A DNA stretch of 64,000 bases, taken from assembly GCF_001403735.1 (NCBI RefSeq), contig NZ_CXPG01000022.1:1-64000 (forward strand), in the 5' to 3' direction. Positions 990-23,734 of this stretch are shown piece after piece. Every line of letters begins with the position of its first letter. Within the stretch, counting starts at the first letter, position 1. The notes under the pieces were generated by a model, which was not told the DNA's origin, searched no databases, and worked only from the letters and a program-made list of their open reading frames with translations. A program made the position numbers and the translations under genes. Origin of the DNA: Jannaschia rubra. Lineage in GTDB: Bacteria; Pseudomonadota; Alphaproteobacteria; Rhodobacterales; Rhodobacteraceae.

Positions 990-2843
990 ATGACCGACCA
1001 GACGAAGATCGCCGCCACCATCGAGAGCGTTCCCTTCGCGGACCTCTACCTGTCCGACCTCAACCCTCGCACCGTCGTCGCCGAGAGCGGCATCGAGGCG
1101 TTGGCCGAGAACATCCGCCGCCTCGGGCTGATCCAGAACCTCGGGGGCCTGCGCGACGGCGACGGCCCCCGCGTCGGCATCGTCGCGGGCGGGCGCCGTC
1201 TGCGGGCGCTGGCCCTGTTGCAGGACGACGCGCGGTTCCAGACCGTCGCCGTCCAGATCGCCCCCAACGCGGAGACCGCCAGCCTTTGGGCGACCTCCGA
1301 GAACGGCCAGCGCGAGGACCTGCATCCCGCCGACGAAATCAGGGACTACGGCGCGATGGATCGCCGGGGCGTGAGAGTCGCGGACATCGCCGTGGCCTAC
1401 GGCGTCACCGAGAAGCACGTCTATCGCCGCCTCGCGCTGGCGGGCCTCCCCGAGCCCGTGCTGGACGCCTTGAAGGCCGGGCAGATCGGCCTGTCCCACG
1501 CCGCCGCCTTCACCGTGGGCGACGACGAGGCGCTTATGATCGAGGTGCTGGCGCGCGTCATCGAGGAGGCCAAGAGCCGGTGGGGCGGGCTGTCGGATCA
1601 CCAGATCAAGACCATGCTGCGCCCGAACGCCGTCAAGGGCACCGACCGCCGCGCCGCCTTCGTCGGCGTGGACGCCTACAAGGAGGCCGGGGGCCAGATC
1701 GGGGGCGACCTGTTCGCGGACGAGACCCTGTTCGATGATCCGGCGATCCTGGACGACGTGTTCGCCGCGAAGCTGGACCGGTTGGCCGAGACCTTCACCG
1801 GCCCCGACGGCTGGAAATGGGCCGAGACCCATGGTGACGACTACCTGCCCTACGGGTTCATGGACGAGCGGAAATTCGGCCGCATCTGCGCCGCCCCCGG
1901 CGACATGACCGAGGACGAGTCCGAGCGTTACGACGAACTGGCCGAACTGGCGAACGGCGACGTGCTGGACGACGCGGGAGCGGCCGAGCTGGAGGCGTTG
2001 CAGCGCAAGGCCGATGGCGTGTTCACCGCCGAGCAGAAGGGCCATGCGGGCGTGATCGTCTACGTGCGGCGCGACGGGACGGTCGAGGTCATCGAGGGGC
2101 TGGTGAAGCCGGAGGACCGCGCCGAGGCGGTCGCGGCTGGCATCCTCGCGCCGTCGCATCACGCTAAGGACAAGGCGGAGGCCGCGCCGAAGTCGCCTAT
2201 TTCCGACAAGCTGCGGGCCGATTTGGAGCGGATCGAGAAGGGCGCGCGGCAGACGGCCCTCTTGAGCGATCCGAAGCTGGCGCTTCACCTTCTGGCGTTC
2301 CACCTGTCGGGCAGGATGGGCTACGGCTACGCCTTCGGCCTGACCGTGAACCCGCCCGCGAACGCGCCCGAGACCGAAACCGGCTTCGCGCTCGACAAGC
2401 GCCTGTCGTCCATCGCCGACCGCCATGAGGCGGGGTTCGGATCGGAAGCCGCGAAGGACTTCGCCGCCTTCCGCAAGCGGGGCGACAAGAAGGTCATGGA
2501 GGCGCTGCACGGCTACGTCGTGAGCCTGTTGACGGTCCCGGACACCGAGTTGGGCGCGATGATCGACAAGGCCACCGCGCGGCGCACCCGCGACGTGTGG
2601 ACCCCGACCGCCGAGAACTTCTTCGGGCGGGTCGGCGGTCCCTACCTCGAAACCCTGTGGCGCGACCTTCTGGACCTCGCGGAGGACCACCCGACCGCCA
2701 CGACCTTCGCCAAGTTGAAGAAGGGCGAGAAGGTCGAGAAGTTGCACGACCTGTTCAACGACGCGGGCGTCCGAGCGGTCCATGGCCTGACCGAGGCGCA
2801 GCAGGACCGCATCGCGGACTGGCTTCCCGAAGGCATGGCCTGA
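990..2843 (+). CDS. ParB/Srx-fold protein (large plasmid ParB-like)
   Basis: This is a 617-residue protein. The N-terminal third is a ParB/sulfiredoxin domain: LNPR at about residues 25-30, the box GGRRLRAL at about 67-75, and a KorB-like helix-turn-helix at about 120-160. The long C-terminal half is charged and matches no domain I can name. The start at 990 follows AAGGATC; an in-frame start at 942 lacks support. No ParA gene is adjacent and the ParA-type ATPase gene lies 9 kb away. It therefore resembles the large ParB-like proteins of conjugative leading regions more than a classical partition ParB. Nuclease activity is possible but not shown. Confidence 0.85.
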   Translation: MTDQTKIAATIESVPFADLYLSDLNPRTVVAESGIEALAENIRRLGLIQNLGGLRDGDGPRVGIVAGGRRLRALALLQDDARFQTVAVQIAPNAETASLWATSENGQREDLHPADEIRDYGAMDRRGVRVADIAVAYGVTEKHVYRRLALAGLPEPVLDALKAGQIGLSHAAAFTVGDDEALMIEVLARVIEEAKSRWGGLSDHQIKTMLRPNAVKGTDRRAAFVGVDAYKEAGGQIGGDLFADETLFDDPAILDDVFAAKLDRLAETFTGPDGWKWAETHGDDYLPYGFMDERKFGRICAAPGDMTEDESERYDELAELANGDVLDDAGAAELEALQRKADGVFTAEQKGHAGVIVYVRRDGTVEVIEGLVKPEDRAEAVAAGILAPSHHAKDKAEAAPKSPISDKLRADLERIEKGARQTALLSDPKLALHLLAFHLSGRMGYGYAFGLTVNPPANAPETETGFALDKRLSSIADRHEAGFGSEAAKDFAAFRKRGDKKVMEALHGYVVSLLTVPDTELGAMIDKATARRTRDVWTPTAENFFGRVGGPYLETLWRDLLDLAEDHPTATTFAKLKKGEKVEKLHDLFNDAGVRAVHGLTEAQQDRIADWLPEGMA

Positions 2844-4738: not shown

Positions 4739-4809
4739 TCGGGGCGACCCGGCCATCTCGCCCAGAGGCTAACCGCGCGTCCTAAGTGCTCCGTAGGAAA
4801 GGGAAGAAC

Positions 4810-5115
4810 ATGTTGGGCGAGGCGCTCCGACTCATTCGGGTCTTCCACGACATGAAGCAAATTGAACTGGCCAAGAAGCTCGATGTGTCGCAGTCGCACC
4901 TGTCTGGGATTGAGCGCGGTGAGAAGATCCCGAGCCAAGACCTCGTAGCGAAATATGCGGACCTCTTCGATCTCCCGGTCAGTTCCATCTGGTTTTTCGA
5001 TGAGAGCCTACGCGAGGGGCCGTCGCCAACTCGGATCGAGAAGGCCCGCGGCGTGATCGCAGACAAAGTCCTCGACTTCCTGCGCATCGTTGAGCGCCGT
5101 CGCGAGGCGCCCTAA
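4810..5115 (+). CDS. XRE-family HTH regulator of the RT module
   Basis: This is a 101-residue protein. Residues about 5-62 form a Cro/C1-type helix-turn-helix (LRLIRVFHDMKQIELAKKLDVSQSHLSGIERGEKIPS), followed by a short helical tail. The ATG at 4810 follows AAAGGGAAG; an in-frame GTG at 4786 lacks such a site. The stop lies 1 nt before the reverse transcriptase start, so the two are surely co-expressed. It is the likely ligand of the palindrome at 4261. HTH proteins are reported companions of some retron reverse transcriptases, so it may be part of the system and not just its repressor. Confidence 0.85.
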   Translation: MLGEALRLIRVFHDMKQIELAKKLDVSQSHLSGIERGEKIPSQDLVAKYADLFDLPVSSIWFFDESLREGPSPTRIEKARGVIADKVLDFLRIVERRREAP

Positions 5116-5116
5116 C

Positions 5117-5998
5117 ATGCCCCGCAGCGCCAAGAGCTATGCCCTTGACCAATGCGCGCTCTATCGCTGCACTACCCGCAAGCGGCTCTTCAGGCTCTTG
5201 CAGACCAGTCCGACCAAGTACGCCGAGTTGCTTGCCGCACCGAACCTCTACCGCCCTATCACGAAGACAAAGAAGAACGGGGAGCCCCGTCTCGTTCATG
5301 CGCCGCGCCACGACCTCAAGCGTATTCAGAAGCGGATCAGCGAACTTCTGATGCGCGTGACGCCGCCGGAGTTTCTTAAATCTCCGGTGCGGGGGCGGTC
5401 GAACATAGACAACGCGGCGGCGCATCGCGGGGCGGCAGCGCATCGGCTGCTCGATATCGAGGACTTCTACCCGAACTGCACAGCCTCTAAGGCCTCGTGG
5501 TTTTTCGGAACCGTCCTGAAATGTCCGCCCGACGTGGTCGCGGTACTGACGTGGCTGACGACGAGACAGGGTTCGTTGCCACAAGGCAGCCCGGCCAGTC
5601 CGATCCTCGCTTACTATGCTTATCAGAACATGTGGGGGGAGATCGATGCGATCTCGCGCGCGGCGGGCAACACGCTGACGGTCTACGTCGATGACGTTAC
5701 TCTGTCTGGCACCATGGTTCGGACAGAGACGGTCTGGGCGATCAAGGAAGCGCTTGCCAAACATGGCCATCGCACGAAGGAGCGCAAGGAAGAAGCGCAT
5801 CTCGGCACGCCCGTGGTCGTGACGGGGGTAGTTCTACGCGATGAGGTGCTGCTCCTTCCCAATGTGCAACACTTGAAGCGTCACCGCGTCCGCAAGGCGC
5901 TCGAACGCATGCCGGAGGGACCGGAGCGGGAGCGCGCGGAAGCTGTCCTACAAGGCCATGAGGAGACAGAACGCCAAATTCTCGCGCGAAACACGTGA
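5117..5998 (+). CDS. Retron-type reverse transcriptase
   Basis: This is a 293-residue protein, the usual size for a retron RT without fused effector. Visible RT motifs are LDIEDFYPN (about residue 115, first catalytic Asp region), GSLPQGSPASP (about 152-162), YVDD (190-193), and a C-terminal VTGVVL in place of the retron VTGLVV. The start ATG is 1 nt after the XRE stop, with GAGG at 5104-5107. Base composition is less GC-rich than its neighbours, a sign of recent acquisition. Retron and other single RTs are known phage-defence components. Whether this one primes on the leader RNA at 4309-4562 is inferred. Confidence 0.88.
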   Translation: MPRSAKSYALDQCALYRCTTRKRLFRLLQTSPTKYAELLAAPNLYRPITKTKKNGEPRLVHAPRHDLKRIQKRISELLMRVTPPEFLKSPVRGRSNIDNAAAHRGAAAHRLLDIEDFYPNCTASKASWFFGTVLKCPPDVVAVLTWLTTRQGSLPQGSPASPILAYYAYQNMWGEIDAISRAAGNTLTVYVDDVTLSGTMVRTETVWAIKEALAKHGHRTKERKEEAHLGTPVVVTGVVLRDEVLLLPNVQHLKRHRVRKALERMPEGPERERAEAVLQGHEETERQILARNT

Positions 5999-8570: not shown

Positions 8571-9092
8571 CCCAAGGCCCCTGCCCTACCGGGCACCGGG
8601 CTCTAGTCGTCCCTTCGGTCCTTCCGGAGCCGCGCGCCCCCGTCCTCCCTGCCCCGGCGGCCCGCCGCTGACGCGCCGGCCTTCCGCCCTGCCCCGTCTC
8701 CTACGGAGCCGCGTCCTGGCGGGCGGGGCATGGTCGGCCGCGGCCGCGTGTCTCCGCCCTTCGGGTGACGATCCCTGGGGCACCCCGGACCCGGCCCGCG
8801 CGGCGCGCGGGCCGGCCGGGATCCTCGTGGGCCTTCGGGGTTCGGGCAAGCCGAACGCCGCTTCGGCCGTCCAGGGTGGAGGCGCAGCCTCCCCCCTCGG
8901 ACAAGGGGTCGGGACGGGGCCGTGTCCTCGCGCGTCGCGCTGCGGGCCGCACCACCCCCGTCCCTCTCCCCTTGTCTCGCCCCCCTCCGCTCTCGGCGAG
9001 GCCAGGTTTGCAGGACAGCGGCGCCATGCGCCGTGCCTCCAAACCCGACCCACAGGGGCATCAGACCCCACCGACACCACAAGGAGAGACCC
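8571..9092. promoter_or_regulatory. GC-rich hairpin-rich leader before the ardC-like gene
   Basis: These 520 bp hold no convincing gene. The stretch repeats elements of the leader at 1-371 (the TTCGG..CAAGCCGAA hairpin near 8842 and a C-run/GCAGGA segment near 8990). It also contains a box at 8917-8958 found again, inverted, at 11569-11608. It ends in AAGGAGAG before the ATG at 9093. Transcription control is the likely function. Promoter activity on single-stranded DNA is a hypothesis given in the findings. Confidence 0.4.
8917..8958 (+). repeat. GC-rich box, copy 1 of an inverted pair
   Basis: Fifteen bases (8917-8931) and nineteen bases (8940-8958), separated by 8 nt, are matched exactly by the reverse complement of 11594-11608 and 11569-11587, where the gap is 6 nt. 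Conserved ends with a variable middle suggest a structured or protein-binding element and not coding DNA. Confidence 0.65.
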
Positions 9093-9998
9093 ATGGCGAA
9101 AGAGCGTTTCGACATCCGGCAGCACGTCACGGATACGATCATCGCCCAGATCGAGGCGGGCACGCCCCCGTGGCGTCAGCCGTGGACCGGCGCGCGCACC
9201 GTCGCGGGCTTCCCGCTGCGCCACAACGGCGAGGGCTACAAGGGCGTCAACATCCTGATCCTATGGGCCGCCGCCCATGCCAAGGGCTATGCGTCCGCCC
9301 GCTGGATGACCTTCAATCAGGCCAAGGAACTCGGCGGCATGGTCCGCAAGGGCGAGCGGGCTGCGAAATCCGTCTTCTATGGATCGGTCGAGAAGGAGGA
9401 CGACAAGGCCGAAACGGGCGAGGGGGCCGCGCGCCGCATCCACTTCGCCAAGGTGAACAACGTGTTCAATGCCGACCAGATCGAGGGCCTGCCCGAAGAC
9501 TACTACGTCCGGCCCGAGCCGCCCCGCGACCTCGGGACCGAGGCCGACCCCGCGCTCGACGCATGGTTCGCCGCGACGGGGGCGCAGATCGAGACCAGCG
9601 CCGAGCCCCGCGCCTACTACCGCCCGTCCACCGACCACATCCACATGCCCCCCGTCGAGACGTTCCACAGCGCCGCCGGATACTACGGCACCCTTGCTCA
9701 CGAGGTGACGCACTGGACCGGCGCCGAGAAGCGGCTGGACCGGATCAAGCGGTTCGCGGACCGGAAAGCCTATGCGTTCGAGGAACTTATCGCAGAACTC
9801 GGGGCCTGCTTCCTTGGCGTGCAACTTGGGATCGAGCCGCAATTCGACCAGTCCGCCGCCTATGTCGAGGGATGGCTGGACGCCATGAAGGCGGACCGCG
9901 ACGTGATCTTTCGCGCCGCCGCCGAAGCCCAGAAGGCCGTCGATTTCCTCAACGCCAAGGCGAAGGCCGAGGACGACGGCGGGAGGGCGGCCGCGTGA
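9093..9998 (+). CDS. ardC: ArdC-type antirestriction protein / zincin-like metallopeptidase
   Basis: This is a 301-residue protein. The N-terminal half (FDIRQHVTDTIIAQIEAGTPPWRQPW, then YKGVNILIL and WMTFNQAKELGG) is the ArdC-like ssDNA-binding domain. The C-terminal half carries the zincin motif HEVTH at about residues 203-207 with a downstream EELIAELGACFLG helix supplying the third ligand. Family members protect incoming single-stranded plasmid DNA from restriction. AAGGAGAG precedes the ATG. It heads a short operon with 10049 and 10393. Placement between ssb and the oriT region fits the leading-region model. Confidence 0.88.
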   Translation: MAKERFDIRQHVTDTIIAQIEAGTPPWRQPWTGARTVAGFPLRHNGEGYKGVNILILWAAAHAKGYASARWMTFNQAKELGGMVRKGERAAKSVFYGSVEKEDDKAETGEGAARRIHFAKVNNVFNADQIEGLPEDYYVRPEPPRDLGTEADPALDAWFAATGAQIETSAEPRAYYRPSTDHIHMPPVETFHSAAGYYGTLAHEVTHWTGAEKRLDRIKRFADRKAYAFEELIAELGACFLGVQLGIEPQFDQSAAYVEGWLDAMKADRDVIFRAAAEAQKAVDFLNAKAKAEDDGGRAAA

Positions 9999-11685: not shown

Positions 11686-12423
11686 TTATCGCCTCTGCTG
11701 GCGCAGCTCCTCGATCACGTCATCGAGGACGGACCAGAACAGGGTCTCGAATTGGCCTCGGACCATCGCGGCGTCCGACTTCACGCGCAGCGGATCGTGC
11801 ACGTCGCGCATCGCATCAAGCATGTCGGCCGGGACATACTTGGTCGTAGAATAGGCCACCGTCATCGGCACCCTGTCCCCTTCCGGCATGGGCACGAATT
11901 CCGGGGTGGGATCGAAGCGTTTCATCGCTCGGCGCCCCGCGAGCGCCAGGACATCGCGCTGCGGCAGACCCCTCGCCACGAGAGGCTTCATCGCCTCGAC
12001 ATGCGCGGTCGTGACCGAGACCTTGAGCGACACCTTCCGCTTCTCGCCCGGTGGAGTGTCGTCTGCCGCACCATCCTTCGATTGCGCGGGGGCGGCATCC
12101 GGATGCTCTGCTTTCGCACGCTTGCCGGGCTTCGCAGCCGGTCGCGGGTTCTCGGCCTTCGTCTCCGGGATCGGATCGGGCGCCGTCTCGGCAGGTTCCA
12201 TGCCCTGATCGGTCGCGACCTGATCGGGTGACGGTTCGGACGTCAGCGAAGCCGCTTCACCTTCGCCCGCAGGTGGCGACGGCTTCACGGGGGGGGTATC
12301 GTCCACAGGGGGTATCCGAACGCTCGCCGGCATCCCGTTCGGCAATGGCGGCCGTTTGGCCTGAAACGTGTGGGCATAGGCCGGATCGCGGCCTTCCACC
12401 TTCGGACGTCCACGACGCGGCAT
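11686..12423 (-). CDS. VirC2-like tandem ribbon-helix-helix protein
   Basis: This is a 245-residue protein. Residues about 20-130 are Pro/Ala/Glu-rich and probably disordered. The C-terminal part shows two RHH-like units: KVSLKVSV-helix-LPQRDVLALAGRRAMKRF (about 132-172), then VPMTVAYSTTKYV-helix-DAAMVRGQFETLFWSVLDDVIEEL (about 185-240). Agrobacterium VirC2 has the same disordered-plus-tandem-RHH plan and binds the overdrive enhancer. The start overlaps the stop of the ATPase gene by 1 nt. Its likely DNA target is the heptad array at 13179-13535. The family assignment is by pattern, not alignment; a ParB-type centromere binder is the alternative. Confidence 0.6.
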   Translation of the reverse strand: MPRRGRPKVEGRDPAYAHTFQAKRPPLPNGMPASVRIPPVDDTPPVKPSPPAGEGEAASLTSEPSPDQVATDQGMEPAETAPDPIPETKAENPRPAAKPGKRAKAEHPDAAPAQSKDGAADDTPPGEKRKVSLKVSVTTAHVEAMKPLVARGLPQRDVLALAGRRAMKRFDPTPEFVPMPEGDRVPMTVAYSTTKYVPADMLDAMRDVHDPLRVKSDAAMVRGQFETLFWSVLDDVIEELRQQRR

Positions 12424-13121
12424 CAGATTTCCCCCATGATCTCATCGAGGATGTCGGAGGCTTCCTGCACCGCCTCATCGAAGTGCTTGACGTGGGAGCG
12501 TTCGAGACCGTTCTTCGAGGTCCGCTTCGCTTCCGCCAGATTGTGCAGGAACCCACCGGCCGCCGCGTCCAGATGTTGCTTGCGGAACATGAAGTAGGTC
12601 GGAAGCACGGGGAAGTTCTCCACGGCCAGCGTCTCGAATTCCTTCTCGGTCACGGTCGGCTTGGCCGTCGCACCCGAAACGACGACCCGAAGCGGAGGAG
12701 CAAGCTCCGGCTGGTCGATCCGATCGAGAAGGCCGGAATACCAATTCACCGTGTCGATCGTGATGAGATAGTCGGTCTTGCCGAGCTTCATCGGCACCAC
12801 GAGAACGTCACTCTGCGCGGCCAGCTCGTCCGCCCAGGCTCCCGCTGCCCCTTGGGTGTCCACGAAGATCAGATCGACCTCTCCGGCTTCGTATGCCTCG
12901 TTCGCCGCCGCTTCGAGGTCTTCGGCGAATTCGAGCTGCCGGTAGGTGACGAGGGGCTCGTCTCTGGCGTATTCGTCCAGCCAGCGATGAAGGCCCTGCT
13001 GCGGATCGGCGTCGAGCGCTAGGCACCGCTTCCCCCGAGAGACCGCCGCGCTCATCAGCGCCTGGGTCAGGGTCGTCTTTCCGGCCCCGCCCTTCCGGGT
13101 CATCACCGTGATGACCTTCAT
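12423..13121 (-). CDS. VirC1/ParA-like ATPase
   Basis: This is a 232-residue deviant Walker-A ATPase. It starts MKVITVMTRKGGAGKTTL, has the Walker-A' region LDADPQQGLHRW, then VDLIFVDTQG and SDVLVVPMKLGKTDYLI. GKR..LDADP...L.RW and the size match VirC1, the relaxosome-recruiting ParA relative, as well as orphan ParA proteins. In-frame starts exist upstream at 13169 and 13187, but the latter lies inside the heptad array, so I prefer 13121 although no strong ribosome-binding site precedes it. It is coupled to the RHH partner gene. It should move or anchor plasmid DNA at the transfer channel or partition the plasmid. Confidence 0.75.
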   Translation of the reverse strand: MKVITVMTRKGGAGKTTLTQALMSAAVSRGKRCLALDADPQQGLHRWLDEYARDEPLVTYRQLEFAEDLEAAANEAYEAGEVDLIFVDTQGAAGAWADELAAQSDVLVVPMKLGKTDYLITIDTVNWYSGLLDRIDQPELAPPLRVVVSGATAKPTVTEKEFETLAVENFPVLPTYFMFRKQHLDAAAGGFLHNLAEAKRTSKNGLERSHVKHFDEAVQEASDILDEIMGEI

Positions 13122-13178
13122 GTCGTCGTTCGCCACCCGCTCATCCTCCACCGTCGAATCTTTCATCATCGACCCCAG

Positions 13179-13535
13179 TTCCGCCATGCGTTATCCGTCA
13201 TGCGTCGTCCGTCGTCTGCTTGCCGTCATGCGTTCGACGTCACGCACCGTCCGCTTTCCGTCATCAGTAGCGCGTCGTCCTTCTTCCGTCACGCGCTTTC
13301 CGTTCTCTTTCTTCCGTTGTGCTTTAGGCGTCACGCGCCACGCGCCTTCCGCTACCTGCCAAGCGTTCCGCGTCGTCCGCCAAGCGTTGTCCGTCCTCCG
13401 TCCTCCGTCCTCCGTCATCCGCTGTCCGTCTGCGGTTAGGCGTCATCTTCCATGCGCTTTTTTCCCTCTGCTTTCCGTCTGCCGTCTTCCGTCATCCGCT
13501 GTCCGTCTGCGGTCATTCGTCTTCCGTCATCCTTC
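13179..13535. repeat. Array of 51 in-register 7-bp repeats (centromere/overdrive candidate)
   Basis: Reading the plus strand in sevens from 13179 to 13535 gives 51 consecutive units with no phase break. The consensus is NTCCGTC, with common variants ATGCGTC, GTCCGCT and ACGCGCC; CTCCGTC occurs three times in a row (13389-13409). Each unit keeps pyrimidines at the end and usually CG at positions 4-5. The array separates the VirC1-like gene from the oriT region. Heptad arrays are the classical binding sites of RHH partition proteins such as omega of pSM19035 (different sequence). Binding by the tandem-RHH protein encoded at 11686 is inferred. Confidence 0.85.
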
Positions 13536-13745
13536 GAGATTGAGGACCGAGATCGTCGTTTCGGCGAGGATGGGTGATCGGATAGCCAGTAGGCGCCCGG
13601 AGAGGCGCTGGGAGGGGTGCTACAGCAGCAAGTCGATATCGCTTGGGGGTAGGGGTGCTCTTGAGAGCATAGGTGGCCCCAGAAGGGATAATCTGTCGGA
13701 CCTTCAGCTTCGCTTTCGGTCGGTCTCACCCGCCGGGTTCGACGC

Positions 13746-13768
13746 GCGGACCCCTGGTCGGGGTCCGC
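13746..13768. other. Perfect 9-bp hairpin next to oriT repeat
   Basis: GCGGACCCC pairs with GGGGTCCGC around TGGTC. It ends 9 bp before the oriT inverted repeat. No T-tract follows. It probably belongs to the transfer origin architecture. Confidence 0.5.
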
Positions 13769-13777
13769 TTCGATGGA

Positions 13778-13845
13778 CTTACCTTCGTTTAGGCTTCGAC
13801 ACTCGCTGCCATCTTCGATTGCGTCGAAGCCTAAACGAAGGTAAG
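13778..13845. repeat. Perfect 23-bp inverted repeat, oriT candidate
   Basis: The arms 13778-13800 and 13823-13845 are exactly complementary around a 22-nt spacer. The repeat lies 33 bp upstream of mobC and the relaxase gene, the usual place for an origin of transfer. The non-coding region 13536-13878 around it also holds smaller palindromes and is best read as the whole oriT region. Confidence 0.75.
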
Positions 13846-13849
13846 AGAC

Positions 13850-13859
13850 TGGCAGGAAA
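13850..13859 (-). other. Candidate nic site (T-DNA-border-like core)
   Basis: TGGCAGGAAA on the plus strand shares its first eight bases with the T-DNA border core TGGCAGGA. The complementary strand reads TTTCCTG|CCA, similar to the TATCCTG|CC nick sequence of VirD2/TraI-type relaxases. The predicted nick lies between 13852 and 13853 on the minus strand, 5 bp from the inverted repeat. The inverted repeat is on the 3' side of the nick, which is not the usual side. Confidence 0.45.
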
Positions 13860-13878
13860 TAGGGGTTGTTTGTTCGCT

Positions 13879-14454
13879 ATGCCTTCGCGCCGCCGCCTCA
13901 CGCTCGATGAACGTCGCGCCATCGTCCGCGAAGCGGCGAAAGGCGTTGCAGCAAAGGAGCTTGCGGCGAAGCACGGCATCACGACGCGCACGGTCCACTA
14001 CACGCTGAAGCGCGAAACAGACCGCCGCCGCGACGCCTCGCATCGGAGCGTCACGTTCTCCGTGACGCTCACGCCAGAGGAGGCGATGGCCTTCGATGCG
14101 GTCCTCACCCGGCACCAGATCGCCACCAGAGCCGATGGATTGCGCCGGCTGATCCGCGCATCGAACGGGGTGTTCCAGCCCGACGAGCACCTGGCCGAGG
14201 AGCTTCAGGGCTTCCGGGCGTCCCTCAACCGGGTCGGCAACAACATCACGCAGATCGCGAAGCGGTTGAACGAGGCGAAGCAGAAGGGGATCGCACCCGC
14301 CTTCGGCGTCGCGAGCCTGGACCAGATCAAGGGTCTAGCGATGTTCATCCGGTCCTTCGCCAACGAGATCGACCTGCTCGCGCAACGTCGGTCCAAGAGG
14401 ATGACGTTGGCCGCGAACGCGGCCCTGGAGGAGCTGGCCGATGGCGCGGACTGA
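13879..14454 (+). CDS. mobC: MobC-like relaxosome accessory protein with N-terminal HTH
   Basis: This is a 191-residue protein. Residues about 6-50 form a helix-turn-helix (LTLDERRAIVREAAKGVAAKELAAKHGITTRTVHYTLKR). After an RHH-like strand (VTFSVTLTPEEAMAFD), the C-terminal part carries the MobC signature LNRVGNNITQIAKRLNEA. It should bind oriT and help the relaxase open the strands. The ATG at 13879 lies just after the oriT repeat. Upstream in-frame codons run through the heptad array and are not coding. The 3' end overlaps the relaxase gene by 14 nt. The extra HTH is unusual for MobC. Confidence 0.85.
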   Translation: MPSRRRLTLDERRAIVREAAKGVAAKELAAKHGITTRTVHYTLKRETDRRRDASHRSVTFSVTLTPEEAMAFDAVLTRHQIATRADGLRRLIRASNGVFQPDEHLAEELQGFRASLNRVGNNITQIAKRLNEAKQKGIAPAFGVASLDQIKGLAMFIRSFANEIDLLAQRRSKRMTLAANAALEELADGAD

Positions 14455-16873
14455 TGCCGTCACCGCCGTCACGGGCGAAGTCTTCCGGGAGGGATGGAGC
14501 AAGGTGCGCGGCTCGACCCAGGGGCTCGGGTCCAAGCAACGGCAGATGGTTCGTGCGGCGCGCGGACACCGCGCGGCGGTCTTCAAGGCGATCCGGGGCG
14601 GCGGCACGCACACGAAGGCGCAGCTCGCCCGCCAGCTCGAATACCTGACCACCAAGTCGTCGCACATCATCGACAGCACTGGTGGATTGGACGGCAAAGC
14701 CACGCTGACGCGCCAAGAGATAAAGGACGTGGCGAACGAATTCTCGAAGAGGTGGGGGGAGGGGTTCAATCCCAAGCTCGGCCATACGACCCACATGCTC
14801 CTGTCCTATCCCGTCGGGACGAAGGGCGAGCATGTCCGCGACATCACGGCGGCCGTCGCGGAACGGTTCTTCCGAAACGAGCAGGGTCACTTCGACTACC
14901 TGATCGCCGTCCACGAGGACCGCGATCATCCCCATGCCCACATCGTCCTCAATCGACGGTCCGAGGAGGGCGAAATCTTCTACCTCGGGCGCGATCACCG
15001 CTTCAACTACGACGACTTCCGCTTGGCGATGGTGGAGGAGGCCGACAAGGTGGGCGTCCGCCTGGAGGCGACCCGCAGGGTCGATCGCGGCGTGCTGACA
15101 TACCCGGCCCGCACGGGCGAGGTGTATGCTGCGAAGGAAGAGGGGCGTGCCCCGGTCGAACGCGAGCGCGTCGGCGAGGATCTGGCGCGCGCGGCGGCCG
15201 AGATCGCCACCGCCTCGAAAACTTACGGAGCCCTGTCCGCCGAGGCGTCGGTCGCAGGGCGGGAAGACATCGCGGACGCCTTGTTCCGCGCCGGGGAAAT
15301 CCTCGCGCGCAAAGGTCAGCTCGAACAGACAGGAGACATCTACATGGCCAGCTTTGACGAGATGAAGACGGAACTCGCCGAGCGCAGCGAGCGCGTCGAG
15401 GCGATGGTGCGGGGACTCCCCGAGGCCGAACGGCCCGCGATGGAGGCGGAGGTCAACAAGCTCTACGCGGACATGGCGCACTTGCAGCCGATGGGAGTCC
15501 GGTCCCCCACGCTCACGCAGGCCCCGAGCGACACGGGCGTCTACAGCCAGGCGAACATCAACAGCGAGCTGACGGATCGGCTGCGCGAGCCCGAGACCCG
15601 CGCCCAGATCGAGACGGCGCTGCGCGGCACCGGCATTTCCAGCGAAACGGTCATCGCCCGCGTCGAGCAGGGGGCGAACAACGCCGCCCTGGAGCGCGAA
15701 TGGCTGGCGCAGGACATGGAGAAGATCGCGCAGACCGATGGGCTCAACCTCGAGCGGCGCGAGGACGTGCGGATCGCGGCCGACAAGCTCGACGCGGTGC
15801 ATGTGAAGCTCGGGACCGCCCTGGAGCGGGCCGAGGTGCTGCGCGACGACGGCGTGGTCGACGTCGAGGACCGGCGAGACTTCCACTACGACCGTCAGAG
15901 CGTGGACGACGTGAGCCGGGCCGTCCGCCAGGAAATGCGCCGTGACGGGGCAGGCGAGGCCCAGATCAACGAGCGCGGCTTCGAGATCGAGGCGCGCGCC
16001 GAGGCTCGGATCGAGCAGGAGCAGCGGGACTACCTGCGCGAGCGGCCCGAGATCATCGCCGCGCCCTCCGCCGTGCTGACCGACGAGCCGTTCGGCCGCA
16101 ACGTGACCGACCGCACGGCCTTCGAGCGGGTCGCGCAGGAGACGGACGCGATCATGGCGCGGGCAGGTGAGCGCGAGAGCGTCGAGGATGCCGTCGCCCG
16201 CGATTTCAAGGACCGCTACCCGGACATGCCCGACCACCTCGCGCGCGGCCTCGGGCGGACCTACGCCCAGGCCGAAGACGTGCGGAACGACGAGGCCGTG
16301 CGGCGGGTGGCGTCCGAGCGGACGGACAGCCTCACCGAAGCGGACGGCCGTGCGGGCACCGACGCGCCCGCACGTCTCGCCACCGTCGAGGAACATCGCG
16401 ACCTCGCCCGAAGCATACTGGCGGCCGAGCGCGCCGAAGACGCCCGGATGCAGATGCGGGAGGACTATGCCGGCGAGAAGGCGGAAGAAGACTGGCGCGG
16501 CGGCGAGGCCGATGACCGCGATAGCGAAGACCGCCGGCGCACGATCAACGACGTGGTGGCCCGAGAGCGGACGGACCCGATCCACGCCTCCATGCCCGAC
16601 GCGGAGAGCAAGGCGGCCTTCCGCGGTGCGGTCGAGGGCGAGCTGTCCGACGAGCGGTTGGAGCGCCTGAAGGAGGGCGATGCCGACGCACTGGACGGGA
16701 TCATAGACGACCGGCTGGACCGTCTCTACGCCGCCAAGGCTTACCTGCAATCGGACGCGACCACGGCGCATAGCGAGGCGCTGGACGAAGTGACCACGGA
16801 GATTTCCGAGGAGGTGGTGGAGGCGCAACGGCTCAAGCACGCCCACAGCGAGAAAGGAACGACCCATGGATAA
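14441..16873 (+). CDS. virD2: VirD2-type relaxase (MOB_P/VirD2 family)
   Basis: This is an 810-residue protein. Relaxase domain in residues about 50-230: catalytic Tyr68 in QLEYLTTK, motif II HTTHMLLSYPVGT (115-127), and the metal-binding HEDRDHPHAHIVLNRR (158-173; His163, 165, 167). The order and wording match Ti-plasmid VirD2. The long C-terminal region (about 240-810) is acidic and helical and has no helicase motifs I can see; it probably holds the T4SS export signal. It nicks oriT and pilots the strand. GGAGGAG lies 7 nt before the ATG. Confidence 0.92.
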   Translation: MARTDAVTAVTGEVFREGWSKVRGSTQGLGSKQRQMVRAARGHRAAVFKAIRGGGTHTKAQLARQLEYLTTKSSHIIDSTGGLDGKATLTRQEIKDVANEFSKRWGEGFNPKLGHTTHMLLSYPVGTKGEHVRDITAAVAERFFRNEQGHFDYLIAVHEDRDHPHAHIVLNRRSEEGEIFYLGRDHRFNYDDFRLAMVEEADKVGVRLEATRRVDRGVLTYPARTGEVYAAKEEGRAPVERERVGEDLARAAAEIATASKTYGALSAEASVAGREDIADALFRAGEILARKGQLEQTGDIYMASFDEMKTELAERSERVEAMVRGLPEAERPAMEAEVNKLYADMAHLQPMGVRSPTLTQAPSDTGVYSQANINSELTDRLREPETRAQIETALRGTGISSETVIARVEQGANNAALEREWLAQDMEKIAQTDGLNLERREDVRIAADKLDAVHVKLGTALERAEVLRDDGVVDVEDRRDFHYDRQSVDDVSRAVRQEMRRDGAGEAQINERGFEIEARAEARIEQEQRDYLRERPEIIAAPSAVLTDEPFGRNVTDRTAFERVAQETDAIMARAGERESVEDAVARDFKDRYPDMPDHLARGLGRTYAQAEDVRNDEAVRRVASERTDSLTEADGRAGTDAPARLATVEEHRDLARSILAAERAEDARMQMREDYAGEKAEEDWRGGEADDRDSEDRRRTINDVVARERTDPIHASMPDAESKAAFRGAVEGELSDERLERLKEGDADALDGIIDDRLDRLYAAKAYLQSDATTAHSEALDEVTTEISEEVVEAQRLKHAHSEKGTTHG

Positions 16874-19250
16874 GGGCAAGATCGCCGTCGGGGTCGTTTT
16901 GCTGACGCTGGTGTTCGCCGCGATGGGCTACGTCGCCGCGACCGCCTACCTGACCTTCCGGGACTACGGCATCCGGGCCGAGATCGACTTCTCCTGGGTC
17001 GCGCGAAGCTATCTCGACTGGCGGATCATCCGCCCGGACGACTTCCAGATGGTGAACCTCATCGTCGGAGGGTTCACTGCGGTCGGTCTGCTGGCGAGCG
17101 CGGCCTTGTCGGGTCAGGCGCTCACCCGGTTCGGGCAGACGCGCTTCCAGAAGGCGGCCGAGCTGAAGCGCAACGGGTTCATGGGCAAGCCGGGCACCGG
17201 CTTCGCGCTCGGGAAGATAAGAGGGGCGAAGGGGAAGGCCCAGCTTCTCAGCTCGAAGGTGTTCCCTCACGCCCTGGTCGTCGCGCCGACCGGCCGAGGC
17301 AAGACGTCCGGCTTCGCCATTCCGAACCTCCTGTTGTGGAAGGGCAGCACCGTGGCGCTCGACGTGAAGGGAGAGCTGTTCACGGAGACGTCGCGCCACC
17401 GCGCCGCGCATGGCGACGCGGTGTTCAGGTTCGCACCGACCGATTGGGCGGACCGCCGGTCGCACCGCTACAACCCGCTGCTTCGCATCTATCAACTGGA
17501 CGACCCGGAGCAGCAGCAGATGGAGCTTCAGCTTCTCGCCACGCTGTTCCTCCAATCGGAGAACGACAAGGTGAAGGGCCTGCTGGAGGGCGGGATCGAG
17601 CTGTTCGTCGCAGCCGGCCTTCTGGCCTTCGAGCGCAAGAAACCGACCTTGGGCGAGATCTACCGGATCGCGTCCGATGGCGGTGACAAGCAGAAGGCGT
17701 ATTTCAATCTCTCGACCAAGGTGGAGAACGAGGCGGCGAAGCGGATCTTCGTCCGTCTCGCATCGACCAACAACGACACGCTCACGTCCTACCTGTCGCT
17801 GTTGATGACCTCGGGCCTCAATCAGTGGTCCAACCCGGCGATCGACCGCGCCACGGAGGTCAGCGACTTCGACTTCCGCGACATCCGCAAGAAGCCCATG
17901 TCGGTCTACCTCGTCGTCGCTCCCAACATGGTGAAGCCGCTCGCCGCGCTGATCCGGCTGTTCTTCTCCGACCTCATCGCGTCGATCCAGACCAAGGAGC
18001 CGGGGGAGGGGGAGCCCTGGCCCGTGATGATCCTGCTGGACGAGTTCAACCGTCTCGGAAAGATGCCGATCGTCGTGGAGAGCATCGAGACGCTGCGATC
18101 CTATCGCGGCCACCTCGCGGTCATCACCCAGACGATCCCGGCGCTGGACGAAATCTACGGCGAGAACACCCGGCGCGCGCTCCAAGGCAACGCCGGCGTG
18201 AAGCTCTACCTCACGCCATCCGACGAGAAGACCGTCGAGGAGTTGTCGAAGGCCGTAGGCAAGACCACGAAGCGCGTCGTGACGCGCTCGCGGTCCATCG
18301 GCCGCAACCCTTTCGAGGGGCGCAGCATGTCCGAGCGCACGGAGGAGGTCGCGCTGTTGACCGAGGACGACGCGCGGCGGATGCCGCTCGATGACATCAT
18401 CGTCGTCGTGGACGCGCAGATGCCGATCCGGGCGAAGCGCATTCAGTATTACGACGATCCGATGTTCCGGAAGATCCACGGCGCGCAGAAGGGCGAGCTG
18501 CCGCTTCCTCTGGTGAACCTCGCACGAAAGGGCGAGGACGGGGACGACAAGGACATCGGAGCGGGCAAGCCGTCAGAGGGCGGCGGCCCAACCCAAGAGC
18601 CGGCGCTGGCCGCGAAGGCCGAGCCCGCCGAGCGCGGGGCGAATTCCGCACCGATCACCAGCACGGACGCGCCCATGCCCGGAGAGGAGGACGCGCCGCG
18701 ACCGAGCGCGGAGCCGGAGCCCATGCCAGCCCCCGCGCCAGGAGCGCCCAGCACGCCGGCCGCTGCCGAGCCGGTGCCCATCGCAACGGCGACCGTCTCG
18801 GCAGGAGGCGGCGCGGTCCGGATCAATTCCCGGCGGGCGAAGCAAGGCACGAAGACCATCGCGGCCGCGCGTGACGGTGGCCAGCGTGAAATGGACCTCG
18901 CCGTGCAACAGAACCTCGATCTTCGCCAGATCGCGGCGTCGGCGGACGCCGAGGCCGTCGTCGCGAAGGGGATCGCAGACTTCACCAAGCTGGAGGCCAT
19001 CCTGACCGAACGGCAGGGCCGCAAGGAAGGTATCGAGACAACCCGTCCGAGGCCCCGCGTCGTGAAGGAAAACCCGGAGTTCATCGACCGCCAGCGCCAG
19101 GTCCTCGATGCCCGCCGCGCGGAGGGAATGAACATGATCGTCCTCGGGGAAGACGGCCGCATCCTCAAGATCGCGCCGGACGGCACGGAGACGGACGTGA
19201 CGGCCGAGCTGGACCGTGAGGTCGAAAGCGCGGGCGGCATGAAGGCGTGA
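16866..19250 (+). CDS. virD4: VirD4/TraG type IV coupling protein
   Basis: This is a 794-residue inner-membrane ATPase. Two N-terminal membrane segments (about residues 7-29 and 62-82) are followed by Walker A PTGRGKT (about 141-147), DVKGELF and the Walker B region MILLDEFNRLGK. After about residue 545 comes a Pro/Ala/Glu-rich linker and a further tail, longer than in Ti VirD4 (about 650). It links the relaxosome to the VirB channel. The start overlaps the relaxase stop, and the stop overlaps the next gene (GTGA). Confidence 0.93.
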   Translation: MDKGKIAVGVVLLTLVFAAMGYVAATAYLTFRDYGIRAEIDFSWVARSYLDWRIIRPDDFQMVNLIVGGFTAVGLLASAALSGQALTRFGQTRFQKAAELKRNGFMGKPGTGFALGKIRGAKGKAQLLSSKVFPHALVVAPTGRGKTSGFAIPNLLLWKGSTVALDVKGELFTETSRHRAAHGDAVFRFAPTDWADRRSHRYNPLLRIYQLDDPEQQQMELQLLATLFLQSENDKVKGLLEGGIELFVAAGLLAFERKKPTLGEIYRIASDGGDKQKAYFNLSTKVENEAAKRIFVRLASTNNDTLTSYLSLLMTSGLNQWSNPAIDRATEVSDFDFRDIRKKPMSVYLVVAPNMVKPLAALIRLFFSDLIASIQTKEPGEGEPWPVMILLDEFNRLGKMPIVVESIETLRSYRGHLAVITQTIPALDEIYGENTRRALQGNAGVKLYLTPSDEKTVEELSKAVGKTTKRVVTRSRSIGRNPFEGRSMSERTEEVALLTEDDARRMPLDDIIVVVDAQMPIRAKRIQYYDDPMFRKIHGAQKGELPLPLVNLARKGEDGDDKDIGAGKPSEGGGPTQEPALAAKAEPAERGANSAPITSTDAPMPGEEDAPRPSAEPEPMPAPAPGAPSTPAAAEPVPIATATVSAGGGAVRINSRRAKQGTKTIAAARDGGQREMDLAVQQNLDLRQIAASADAEAVVAKGIADFTKLEAILTERQGRKEGIETTRPRPRVVKENPEFIDRQRQVLDARRAEGMNMIVLGEDGRILKIAPDGTETDVTAELDREVESAGGMKA

Positions 19251-20017: not shown

Positions 20018-23000
20018 CTATCCGTAGCGGTTCACGTCTCCATGGTCGGCGTAGAGCTGCACCCGGAGGCCCCGCTGGGCGATCATGGGGCGCATCTGCG
20101 ACAGGATTGGATCGTCCGTCATCGCGTCGATCATGTGATCCCGATGTTCGTCCGAAATCCCGCAGTGATCCGCGACGATCCGGTCGAGATCATAGAGCGC
20201 CTGCTGGTATCGCGCAGTGAGGTCGTCATCGGTCAGCGATCGGATGGCGGCGACGACCGCATCGAGGTTCGTTGGCACGGCGAGGCCCAGCACGTCGTCG
20301 CGGCATAGCTCCGCTTCTGGGTCGTCCTCGACGCGCCGCGCAAGATCGAACGCGACGAAGGTGCGGAGGGCCGCATCCGGCAGCTTGAGCCGGAAGAACA
20401 GATCGGAGCTGTTCACTTCGTTGCCGCTTTCACGGATGTGCAGGACCGGCACGGGCGTTTCGGAGACGTCGTTGAGGTCGATGCCCGCCACGAGCGGATC
20501 GCCGTCCACGACGAGCCGATTGACGGTCCGACCGTCCTCCGCGCCTTCCGCGATCAGTCGGTCGATCTCGCGGTAGCGGTCCGCGATGTCGCTGTCCGCG
20601 TTCATCACCGCTTCGCCGGCCGCACGCAGCTCCTCCAGACGTTCCAACGTCCTATCCGGCGGAATTGGGAGGAGCGTCAGTGTGCGTTTATACCAGTGGC
20701 ACCCGAGGTCTTCGATGATGGAAGATCGAAGGATGCGTGCAGCGTAGAATTGAACCACGCGGCTAAGGAGATAAGCGTTCAGCGGGAATGTTTCGGTCAG
20801 CTCGACAATATGAGCCGTGTTCTGAAATCCCGACCCCGCGACGATTGGAGCCGCTGTTGGAAGCTGTGAGATTTCCCGCAAGGCGTAGGTGTTTCGATAG
20901 GTGAGTTGGTCCGCGTATGTGTAGATGTAGCGTGTGCTTTCCCTACGCGCAGTTGGAGACCACCGCCCCATTGGTTCGCCGAGAAGCCCTTGTGGGAAGA
21001 TGTTCTGGCCTTTGTAGAGGTCGATGCAATCCGTCTCGCCTTCCTGACAAAACGCGGCGCCACCACCCAACTTTACGCCATAGTTGAACAGAAGCTCCGG
21101 ACGATAGGCATACCGCTCACCGTTCGGCTCTTTCTCCCGGACCTCCACGATGCGGCCACGGTCGCGACGTGCCCAGACGACCCGCACGATCTCGCCCAGT
21201 CGGGGCAGCTCCGCCATCGAGGCCAGGGCCTCCGGATCGCCGGCGCCGAACTTCGTCAGCATCGCGTCCGCGCTGTCGTCGTTGGATCTCATCGCGGCCA
21301 CCCAGGCGGGCAGGGCGATCGGTGCCGGCGTGTCCCCGTCGCCGCCAGCCCCACCGTCCCCAACTCCTTCCACGGGCGCTGTCACGGCGGGACGCAGGGC
21401 TTCCGGAAGATAGGCGAGCCTGTCGATCTGACATCGGCGAACCGTCGTCCGCGTGGCCCGGCCGAAGTCGATCACGTCGTCCACGAGCGCGGTCGGGCCG
21501 AGTTGGAGCATTTCCACTTCGTCGTCGGGCGAAGGTTCGGAACGCTCGATCACCATGATGATCGTCGCTCGCTTTACGCCCCGGAAGGTGGACTTCCCCA
21601 ACCCTTCGAGGTCCGCCACGAGCTTGATGCGATAGCCTTCGAGAATCCGCCGAAGCGGCCCCGCATAGGCCGCTTCCGTCATTCCAATTGGCACGATGAA
21701 GGCAAGTCGTCCGCCCGGCTTCACCCACTGCCGCAGCGCCCGGTAGATGAAGTAGATCGACGTGTCGGTGTTCTTGAACGCGACCTCCGAGTAGGCATCG
21801 CCCACGCCGCCCGCGCCCGTCCTTTCGGAGCGAATGTAGGGCGGGTTCATCACGACTAGGTCATAGTCCCGTTGCGCCACCGCCTCGAACCCTGGCGGGA
21901 TCAGAGCGCCCCCGCCGCGCTCACCGTTCACCAGGCGGAACGTCATGCCGGTTTGCGCGGCAGTCCCGGCCTCGTTCCCTTCGCCGAAGGCTCGGCCCAT
22001 CGGATCGAGCGAGGACCATCCGCCATGAAGCGGGAGGCTCGGGAGGATGGCGCGAGCAAAGTCGCGCGTCTCTTCGACCGTCTTGCCACGAACCACGTCG
22101 ATCAGATGCCAGAAGATCTGAATCTGCGCCAAGGCGATGGAGAAGGACGAAATGTCCAAGCCGTGCAGGCGCGCCACCACGGCGCGCACGTTCTCGGCGT
22201 TTACGGCCCCGGCGTCCGCGAGCTGACGAAGGCGCTGCACCAGGGCCTCCACGAGGAACGTGCCGGTTCCGCAAGCCGGATCGAGAATGTCGTCGTTGCC
22301 CGACCAGCCGGCCGCTTCGAGCATGAACCGTGCCACCTCGGGGCGGGTGTAGACTTCGCCCAACCGGCGACGCTGTGCGACGTCGAGATATTGGTCGTAG
22401 ACGCCAGACAGAACGTCCCCTTCGACCGTCTTGAAGTTCCATCGCGATAGGATGAACGCTGATCGTTCGAGGGCGGTCGAGAGGGCGGGATCGTTCCGGG
22501 CGATCGCCCAATCCAGAAGGTTCGCGTCGAAGATCGAACGGAAGACCCCTTGGGCGTGACGGTAGGTCTGACGCATCAACTCTTGCATCGGCAGGTCGAA
22601 GTGTTCCGCGAAGCGCCAGAAGACGTCGATGCCGCCGTTGGAGATGTAGCGCACCTTGAAGAGGCCGTAGTCCTCACAGAACCGGATCGTCAGCATCCGG
22701 GAGAGGATCAGCGAACCCGTTTCGTAGGCGAGCGACTGGAGCAATCGGGCGTTCGGCTTCGACTTGTCCTTCTCAACCTTCAGAAGGCTCGCACCCTCGA
22801 CACCCTGCCGCTCGCCGTAGTGCTGGAAAAGATCGTGTTCGAGGCGCAGCGCGTAGATGTAGGGACCGAGATCGGCCATCACGTCCTGTCGGCGGCGCTC
22901 ATAGTCCACCACAAGGCCCTCATCGAGGGCTTCGCGGTGGCGCCGCTCGACCATCCGCTCGAACCGGATCGGGCGCTGTTCATCCGTCCAATCGAAGACG

Positions 23001-23734
23001 GCCTGACCATAGTCAGCAGTCATGGGTTCGAGGAGGCGGGACGCCTTCTTGAGGTCCGCGATACCCCTCGTCTCGATGATCTCCCTGACCGCCTCACGAA
23101 GAAGCTCTGCGGCTTCGCGCACCGTGTCGGAGAACTGCCCGCGCGTCTCTGGCTCGACGGGGAGGAAGGAGAAGGGCGTCTCGTTGCGTCGGAACCGTTC
23201 CAGCTCCGCCTCCAACGTCAGATGCTCCGCTGATAGGACGCCGAAGCAGCTCGCGAACGCTTCCGGGTCCGAAAGCTCTGGCCACGTCCATGATTTCGTG
23301 ATCGCGGCGGCTAGGCCCGCCCTTGGCGCCAAGGACTTGGCAAAAGCGGCGCGGTCCGACACATCGAGGCGAGTGACGACGGCCTGGTCGATCAAGTAGA
23401 ACCACTTCGTCCCCGCCTGGACGTAGGCCCTCTTCTCGCGGAGGATCGGAACGGGCGCCGCCTGAACTTGATCGTCCTTCTTGACCTCGAAGACCGCGAT
23501 CGCATGGTTCGGGCCCTTCAGAACCTTCCCGTTTTCGGTGCGGTAGATCGCAAGGTCGGGCCGCTTGCGGGAGCCGTCCATCTTCGAGTCCACGACGACC
23601 TGACGATCTTGCAGTCCGACCCCATAGGTCGATCGCACGAGGAGATCGCGGATGTATCCGTAGAGGTCCGGCTCGCCGGCGTCGTTCGCAGTAATTTCAC
23701 GGATCTTCTTCGCTAGGCTGGCGGTGCTCGGCAT
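20018..23734 (-). CDS. Single-chain (type IIG-like) restriction-modification enzyme
   Basis: This is a 1238-residue protein. The N-terminal nuclease of PD-(D/E)xK type has RPDLAIY (Asp60) and FEVKK (Glu83, Lys85). The methylase core has DPACGTGTFLVEAL (about 482, SAM binding) and NPPYIRSERTG (about 631, catalytic NPPY of gamma-type N6-adenine methylases). The C-terminal part (about 850-1238) would be the target recognition region. Cutting and methylation reside in one chain, so no partner is needed. A PglX-type methylase is the alternative, but the nuclease motif argues against it. It sits as an insert between the mob and virB blocks. Confidence 0.85.
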   Translation of the reverse strand: MPSTASLAKKIREITANDAGEPDLYGYIRDLLVRSTYGVGLQDRQVVVDSKMDGSRKRPDLAIYRTENGKVLKGPNHAIAVFEVKKDDQVQAAPVPILREKRAYVQAGTKWFYLIDQAVVTRLDVSDRAAFAKSLAPRAGLAAAITKSWTWPELSDPEAFASCFGVLSAEHLTLEAELERFRRNETPFSFLPVEPETRGQFSDTVREAAELLREAVREIIETRGIADLKKASRLLEPMTADYGQAVFDWTDEQRPIRFERMVERRHREALDEGLVVDYERRRQDVMADLGPYIYALRLEHDLFQHYGERQGVEGASLLKVEKDKSKPNARLLQSLAYETGSLILSRMLTIRFCEDYGLFKVRYISNGGIDVFWRFAEHFDLPMQELMRQTYRHAQGVFRSIFDANLLDWAIARNDPALSTALERSAFILSRWNFKTVEGDVLSGVYDQYLDVAQRRRLGEVYTRPEVARFMLEAAGWSGNDDILDPACGTGTFLVEALVQRLRQLADAGAVNAENVRAVVARLHGLDISSFSIALAQIQIFWHLIDVVRGKTVEETRDFARAILPSLPLHGGWSSLDPMGRAFGEGNEAGTAAQTGMTFRLVNGERGGGALIPPGFEAVAQRDYDLVVMNPPYIRSERTGAGGVGDAYSEVAFKNTDTSIYFIYRALRQWVKPGGRLAFIVPIGMTEAAYAGPLRRILEGYRIKLVADLEGLGKSTFRGVKRATIIMVIERSEPSPDDEVEMLQLGPTALVDDVIDFGRATRTTVRRCQIDRLAYLPEALRPAVTAPVEGVGDGGAGGDGDTPAPIALPAWVAAMRSNDDSADAMLTKFGAGDPEALASMAELPRLGEIVRVVWARRDRGRIVEVREKEPNGERYAYRPELLFNYGVKLGGGAAFCQEGETDCIDLYKGQNIFPQGLLGEPMGRWSPTARRESTRYIYTYADQLTYRNTYALREISQLPTAAPIVAGSGFQNTAHIVELTETFPLNAYLLSRVVQFYAARILRSSIIEDLGCHWYKRTLTLLPIPPDRTLERLEELRAAGEAVMNADSDIADRYREIDRLIAEGAEDGRTVNRLVVDGDPLVAGIDLNDVSETPVPVLHIRESGNEVNSSDLFFRLKLPDAALRTFVAFDLARRVEDDPEAELCRDDVLGLAVPTNLDAVVAAIRSLTDDDLTARYQQALYDLDRIVADHCGISDEHRDHMIDAMTDDPILSQMRPMIAQRGLRVQLYADHGDVNRYG

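Follow-up and report, generated by a model that had tools for sequence, protein, structure and literature searches.

A long array of 7-bp units lies between a VirC1-family parA and a divergent mobilisation operon in the window, which is the whole 64-kb stretch of DNA analysed. The array comprises 51 in-register units at 13179..13535, with a consensus of NTCCGTC on the plus strand, and is a candidate centromere-like site. As judged from sequence comparison, it is a member of a conserved family of arrays on related conjugative plasmids, in which period and register are kept and the unit is lineage-specific. The preferred reading is that the array is a centromere read by the partner protein encoded after parA, that it serves as the plasmid's own partition site, and that it is probably also coupled to transfer. 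The probability of this reading was put at about two in three.

The heptad array

The original prediction described 51 consecutive in-register heptads at 13179-13535 with no phase slip and a consensus of NTCCGTC. Both claims held. The array returned by a profile fitted with the borders withheld spans offsets 57-414 relative to the MKVITV codon of ParA. These borders coincide exactly with 13179-13535 and give 51.0 units. A second model, which tolerated slips, gave 356 bp, 50.9 units and zero phase slip. Lag-7 autocorrelation had been proposed as a check. The lag-7 identity across 13179-13535 was 0.537, above the largest value of 0.394 among 2,000 dinucleotide-preserving shuffles (mean 0.305, sd 0.025). 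Identity was 0.51-0.56 at lags 14, 21, 28 and 35, and 0.26 and 0.24 at lags 6 and 8. No second region passed the lag-7 threshold in the window or in the whole 103-kb contig.

The units had also been said to diverge individually while keeping register, and the counts agree. Thirty-five distinct units were present among the 51, and mean pairwise unit identity was 0.544 in register compared to 0.225-0.329 out of register. Identity was flat with distance, at 0.54 for neighbours and 0.57 for units thirty apart. This absence of extra likeness between neighbours speaks against recent slippage. Open reading frames cross the array on both strands, but a coding array was rejected as a 7-bp period is not a multiple of 3. 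The omega heptad of pSM19035 is WATCACW. It had two matches in the window and none in the array.

parA and the flanking mobilisation genes

The parA gene (12423..13136, minus strand) encodes a small ParA with a KGGxGKT Walker motif (MTRKGGAGKTT). It belongs to the VirC1 family by PF07015 (70.1 bits, cut-off 24) and, unlike VirC1 proper, it fell below the VirC1 equivalog cut-off (NCBIfam NF010423, 71.3 bits compared to 313). The reading frame is open to 13187 and the longest ORF starts at ATG 13187, its first codons overlapping the array. GTG 13136, with GGAGG (13145-13149) 8 nt upstream, appears to be the likelier start. A ParA locus was also found on a contig of Jannaschia sp. LMIT008 (79% identity), and the Jannaschia parA is preceded by a context similar to this GGAGG/GTG one. 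With GTG 13136 as the start the array is intergenic and lies 42 bp upstream of parA, the leader occupying 13137..13178 (minus strand). RHH (type Ib) systems have a repeat centromere upstream of parA, and the position and the repeats found here agree with this layout, the centromere role being putative.

On the far side of the array three genes follow on the plus strand. The first encodes a MobC-like mobilisation protein (13879..14454) with an N-terminal HTH (PF13384 above cut-off; PF05713 MobC E 9e-4, below cut-off). The second encodes a VirD2-like MOBP relaxase (14441..16873; PF03432 47.4 bits; NF010437 (VirD2) 77.5 bits, below the equivalog cut-off), and the third a VirD4-type coupling protein (16866..19250; PF02534 285 bits). 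The array separates the parA-partner operon from this divergent mobC-relaxase-virD4 operon. It had been placed between a VirC1-like gene and oriT; the gene was confirmed, and the oriT is presumed from the mobC-relaxase operon.

The spacer between the array and mobC (13536..13878) is the expected oriT region. It holds a perfect inverted repeat with 23-bp arms (13778-13800 and 13823-13845) which ends 34 bp before mobC. This repeat was not found in the Jannaschia locus and was not taken as the oriT. A different inverted repeat, GTACAAGCCC, with arms 31-33 nt apart, occurs shortly past the array in 20 of the 47 loci described below (e.g. L019, L022 and L056), and a variant of it is present in L010. 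It is possibly an oriT or a regulatory element.

The partner protein

The proposed array binder is a protein of 245 amino acids (11686..12423, minus strand) whose gene overlaps the end of parA. It has a proline-rich middle and gave no Pfam, NCBIfam or PDB sequence match. The partner genes that follow parA in 35 loci align across the C-terminal part and share its pattern. AlphaFold2 was run on two sequences. One of the five models was confident (mean pLDDT 83.9, pTM 0.79) and contained strand-helix-helix twice, while the remaining four were poor (mean pLDDT 45-57). On this model the C-terminal part is predicted to have a tandem RHH layout of two strand-helix-helix units. VirC2 and TraY are tandem RHH proteins.

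Foldseek returned 59 matches for the partner model at E <= 10 and none at E <= 0.001, and the fold was not confirmed by it. The first three ranks were chains of the F-plasmid relaxosome, with E values of 0.47-1.2, and were discounted as evidence. Identification of the partner as VirC2 gained no support from sequence, neither phmmer nor a profile giving a PDB match. A profile of the deep-clade partners gave one chance-like match to the PDB (E 0.68). A Pfam search with 24 partners gave two weak unrelated matches, each in one member. Comparison of the partner-group profiles gave E values of 2.9e-6 to 0.011 and one of 0.8, with probabilities of at most 75, perhaps inflated by the proline-rich middle. 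The residues of the first predicted strand differ between clades having different units. Both strand residues and units follow descent, so this covariation no more than suggests recognition. No relative of the partner was found in the viral contigs, which contained 80 distant ParA relatives (24-46% identity) that were left out of the comparison.

Arrays at related loci

Of 394 genomes of the family, 31, including the window's own, contained ParA homologues (E <= 1e-20), and the 32 matches in these genomes gave 30 loci. Searches with two protein queries gave 67 and 54 plasmid records, and 16 plasmids in all were examined. Periods of 4-20 bp were scanned in the first 35 loci. The strongest was 7.0 in 33 of them and 7.05 in two, and the 7-bp score ranged from 13.9 to 61.3 compared to at most 8.4 in 2,109 control windows. 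The scan of 47 loci allowed periods of 4-14 bp, minus those near 4.5, 6, 9 and 12. A short-period array was present upstream of parA in all 47, each scoring above the maximum (12.5) of 4,234 control windows. The period was 7.0-7.05 bp in 44 loci, 8.0 in L060, 7.4 in L061 and 4.0 in L059. Absence of an array at L053, L059, L060 and L061, suggested by a scan for 7 bp only, was rejected since the all-period scan gave 8, 4, 8 and 7.4 bp, respectively. Periods of 8, 7.4 and 4 bp at the same place indicate that 7 bp itself is not essential.

Loci L001 (the window again) and L033 (a 39-residue match) were excluded from the profile fit, the first 35-locus scan and the partner alignment. L038, L052, L053 and L146 duplicate places already counted, and L147 is the same place as L053. 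L054 and L019, and likewise L057 and L028, lie on contigs of equal length and are probably the same plasmids, making the 47 loci probably 45 at most. A divergent mobC-relaxase operon adjoins the array in most loci with enough flank. In a tree of 46 ParA rows the long branches meet and the period classes were no more clustered than in shuffles; the number of period changes is left unstated for this reason.

The VirC1 family model supplied a further 29 loci from the class, with L153 (the window) excluded. Twenty-four stayed within the control maximum, two of these (L162 and L165) being above the 99.9% level. The five above the maximum were L147 (8.0), L151 (5.4), L154 (4.0), L161 (4.0) and L175 (8.0); another period scan gave 8.0 for L161 and 12.05 for L154. 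L147 was the best VirC1 match of the survey (264 bits). Its parA is flanked by divergent relatives of the relaxase (E as low as 7e-20) and of MobC (E as low as 1e-9). The flank of L161 contained a MobC relative (E 1.8e-7) and a weak relaxase match (0.02). The survey indicates that the array tracks mob-linked ParA of this kind and not VirC1-family ParA generally. Arrays were also seen upstream of the VirC1-family ParA genes of L151 (5.4 bp) and L154 (4 or 12 bp), with no MobC or relaxase match within the flank examined.

Constraint on units and register

The unit was NTCCGTC in the window and Jannaschia, cgTGTCg in Phaeobacter and Thioclava, and of the GCGGt type in L008 and L009. Groups of relatives were compared position by position. 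The most informative heptad position changed least in seven of eight groups. Its rate of change in the eight was 0, 0.6, 9.3, 9.0, 1.7, 6.5, 2.3 and 21% of comparisons, the 21% group being the window and Jannaschia. The least informative position changed in 16-66%. In group g6 the two best positions were level (6.5 and 6.2%). Of 79 indels inside arrays, 59 had a length divisible by 7, compared to 11 of 139 outside. These change and indel counts are of ordered pairs of related sequences, with each pair entered twice, and are not independent. Twenty-nine of the 47 loci, picked for spread and all of period 7, were modelled for slips. Twenty-three of these arrays, with 31-57 units, had no phase slip and the other six (50-63 units) had one to three.

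Indels in steps of 7 are also what slippage predicts, and recent exact tandem runs occur within some arrays (L034, L035), as they would in a neutral tandem repeat produced by slippage and turnover and without function. Against such a repeat, the adjacent units of the window are no more alike than others and diverge with no decay of identity over distance. In addition, all 47 loci carry an array at one place. In the largest group each heptad retains a single C that hardly varies, with the other bases close to random. A functionless repeat is therefore considered very improbable.

The array fills the region upstream of parA and could be a long operator for autoregulation of the parA and mobC promoters. 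Such an operator fits RHH partition proteins, which commonly act as repressors of the operon that encodes them. A sigma-70-like promoter scan of 13100-13950 gave no match, a result of little weight in this group. The size of the arrays speaks against an operator only, as 31-63 units are far beyond the needs of a promoter and the 29 modelled arrays extend about 240-440 bp from parA. This explanation was judged improbable, less so than a neutral repeat.

The replicon

The ends of the window's contig overlap by 107 bp, making it most likely a closed circle of 103,103 bp. RepC is encoded at 100592-101011 of this contig (C22), about 15 kb from the array on the circle. No RepB match was found on the contig. 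The sole match to the RepA and AAA_31 models was the window ParA, far below the RepA cut-off, and a Walker-motif search of the contig agreed in finding a single ParA. The contig is a RepC_soli-like plasmid, with RepC and without RepA and RepB. The repAB partition genes are described as missing from RepC_soli plasmids of Rhodobacteraceae (PMC4148982).

Both RepA and RepB were above cut-off in seven of the 16 fetched plasmids. RepC was present in eight of the other nine; none was found in Yoonia pBS5-3-1. A 7-bp array was carried by six of the seven RepABC plasmids and by seven of the nine others, and the remaining three plasmids were those with periods of 4, 8 and 7.4. Iteron origins typically contain short direct repeats, and the array could on this account be taken for the replication iterons of RepC. 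RepC lies far from the array on the circle, as given above, and arrays accompany parA and mobC on RepABC and RepC-only plasmids alike, which leaves iterons as the least probable explanation of all those considered.

Several other genes of the window were noted. A ParB-like protein of 617 amino acids (990-2840, plus strand) matched PF17762 HTH_ParB above cut-off, and Thioclava p4 and Paracoccus PARArs4 p1 carry relatives of it (49-61% identity). It could be the true ParB and a rival DNA-binding partner of ParA, which counts against the preferred reading, or possibly a second partition protein that binds DNA. Genes for an HTH protein and a reverse transcriptase follow each other at 4786-5115 and 5090-5998 (plus strand). 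Their best PADLOC models were HTH_VI and RT_VI, and by sequence the pair resembles a type VI defence unit of the retron kind. An ArdC-like anti-restriction protein (PF08401 and PF18818) is encoded at 8922-9998 (plus strand). An N6 adenine methylase-like protein of 1,238 amino acids is encoded at 20018-23734 (minus strand), with mad2 and type II/IIG methylases as the best PADLOC models. Many of the fetched plasmids likewise have a gene for a zincin-like metallopeptidase close to parA.

Proposed function

The array would be the site that acts in cis in an RHH-type partition system incorporated into a mobilisation locus. The partner is predicted to be a tandem RHH protein, and one molecule would then stand for an RHH dimer. 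Partner molecules would bind successive 7-bp units cooperatively in a single register and coat about 350 bp. The VirC1-family ParA would act on this complex and place the plasmid copies in the cell. ParA, partner and array together would form the partition system of this RepC-only plasmid, and the single ParA in a RepC-only context argues for this role. The complex would adjoin mobC and the relaxase gene and so probably also help in guiding the relaxosome to the VirD4/VirB channel. We infer binding by the partner, the partition role and the coupling to transfer.

In the original prediction the array was a possible centromere, an enhancer of conjugation, or both at once. This was supported in part. 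Comparison points to a conserved array that a protein probably reads and that goes with this lineage of ParA and partner; the predicted tandem RHH layout of the partner fits, and the RepC-only setting speaks for partition. For transfer the indications are synteny and the precedents of VirC1/VirC2 and R388; the link is suggested by position and precedent. A transfer enhancer only would be an overdrive-like array on which VirC1/VirC2-like binders stimulate nicking and bring the relaxosome to the channel, with partition located elsewhere. The overdrive consensus had no match in the window at up to three mismatches, which counts against this alternative. In its favour, a divergent mobC-relaxase operon lies beside most arrays, the ParA is in the Pfam VirC1 family, and in Agrobacterium VirC1 with VirC2 is reported to bind overdrive (PMC8716806, PMC4285021). 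Retention of the 7-bp array on six of the seven RepABC relatives, which already possess a partition system, likewise speaks for an enhancer and counts against the centromere reading; it favours an added transfer role.

Paracoccus plasmid PARArs4 p1 retains RepC, parA, the partner and the array. A relaxase, mobC and virD4 were neither annotated there nor matched (tblastn, 13 queries, E below 0.4). An array kept where these genes are not detectable favours partition and stands against an enhancer only, which would moreover leave the RepC-only plasmids with no known partition system. An enhancer only was considered unlikely, though it is the most credible of the explanations set against the centromere. 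A dual role predicts both that the array is kept without a relaxosome and that it is kept beside another partition system. Loss still to happen would give the same pattern.

A broader reading joins these points and is put forward tentatively, as rather less likely to be right than wrong. The array would represent an ancestral centromere at the divergent parA/mobC (virC/virD-like) junctions of a class of alphaproteobacterial conjugative plasmids, with one nucleoprotein filament serving inheritance and transfer and the overdrive of T-DNA transfer as a reduced descendant. If this is true, each unit of 7, 7.4 or 8 bp is read by a tandem-RHH protein, and period and unit sequence together form a plasmid-specific identity code.

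The locus is a concrete candidate for the partition system missing from RepC_soli plasmids. For a ParA site touching mobilisation genes, it provides many natural variants that differ in the sequence, number and period of the units. Two questions become testable, namely what sets the repeat period read by RHH-type partition proteins, and whether plasmid partition gave rise to transfer enhancement of the VirC1/VirC2 type.

Comparison with known systems

Such arrays were not found described in the portions of the literature covered by the search, whose scope was papers outside subscription. In the public record the ParA of one relative is named 'putative crown gall tumor protein VirC1', and no array feature is present in the region shown.

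The closest likeness in the site itself is to delta/omega of pSM19035, which has a ParA gene, an RHH partner (here predicted) and contiguous 7-bp units (PMC9499535, as available in part). At least four contiguous heptads are described there as needed for full activation of ParA, and gaps spoil the activation. A long array in strict register fits a cooperative complex in light of this need for contiguous heptads. The native site of pSM19035 has seven heptads in mixed orientation, compared to 51 in one orientation here. The window locus also differs in its partner, predicted to be a tandem RHH protein, and in a site that adjoins mobilisation genes (PMC9499535).

The stb operon of R388 resembles the locus in its position. 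Its ParA-like and ParB-like genes are divergent from the MOB operon at oriT and its promoter contains direct repeats, so that repeats and a ParA-like gene are found in an operon divergent from MOB genes in both cases (PMC3098194, from the available excerpts). The DNA-binding protein of stb serves stability and affects transfer. The R388 repeats, in two sets of five, are 9 bp long with 2-nt spacing, unlike the heptads of the window. StbB, whose Walker motif is divergent, is dispensable for stability (PMC3098194).

The likeness to Agrobacterium VirC1/VirC2 lies in a ParA of the same Pfam family, a second gene in the operon, and a VirD2-type relaxase with VirD4. Unlike the array, overdrive consists of a single short site beside the T-DNA border (PMC4285021, PMC8716806, both available in part). 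Partition proteins of NAH7 (PMC12421886) and of R1 ParMRC (PMC4949242) are described in the available text as enhancing conjugation. NAH7 differs from the window locus in its parS sites, which are inverted repeats of 18 bp, and in having a homologue of KorA at oriT (PMC12421886), and R1 has an actin-type ParM, unlike the window ParA (PMC4949242).

The plasmid itself is like the RepC_soli plasmids of Rhodobacteraceae in having RepC without RepA and RepB (PMC4148982, PMC9025767). One of these, pGal_E78, carries a T4SS, and the available portions of both papers name no partition system for RepC_soli plasmids. Precedents exist for parts of the locus, in the RHH centromeres, VirC1/VirC2 and R388 stb. 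New, as far as the literature search reached, are the length of the array, its strict register, its lineage-specific period and its seat in a VirC/VirD-like locus on RepC-only plasmids.
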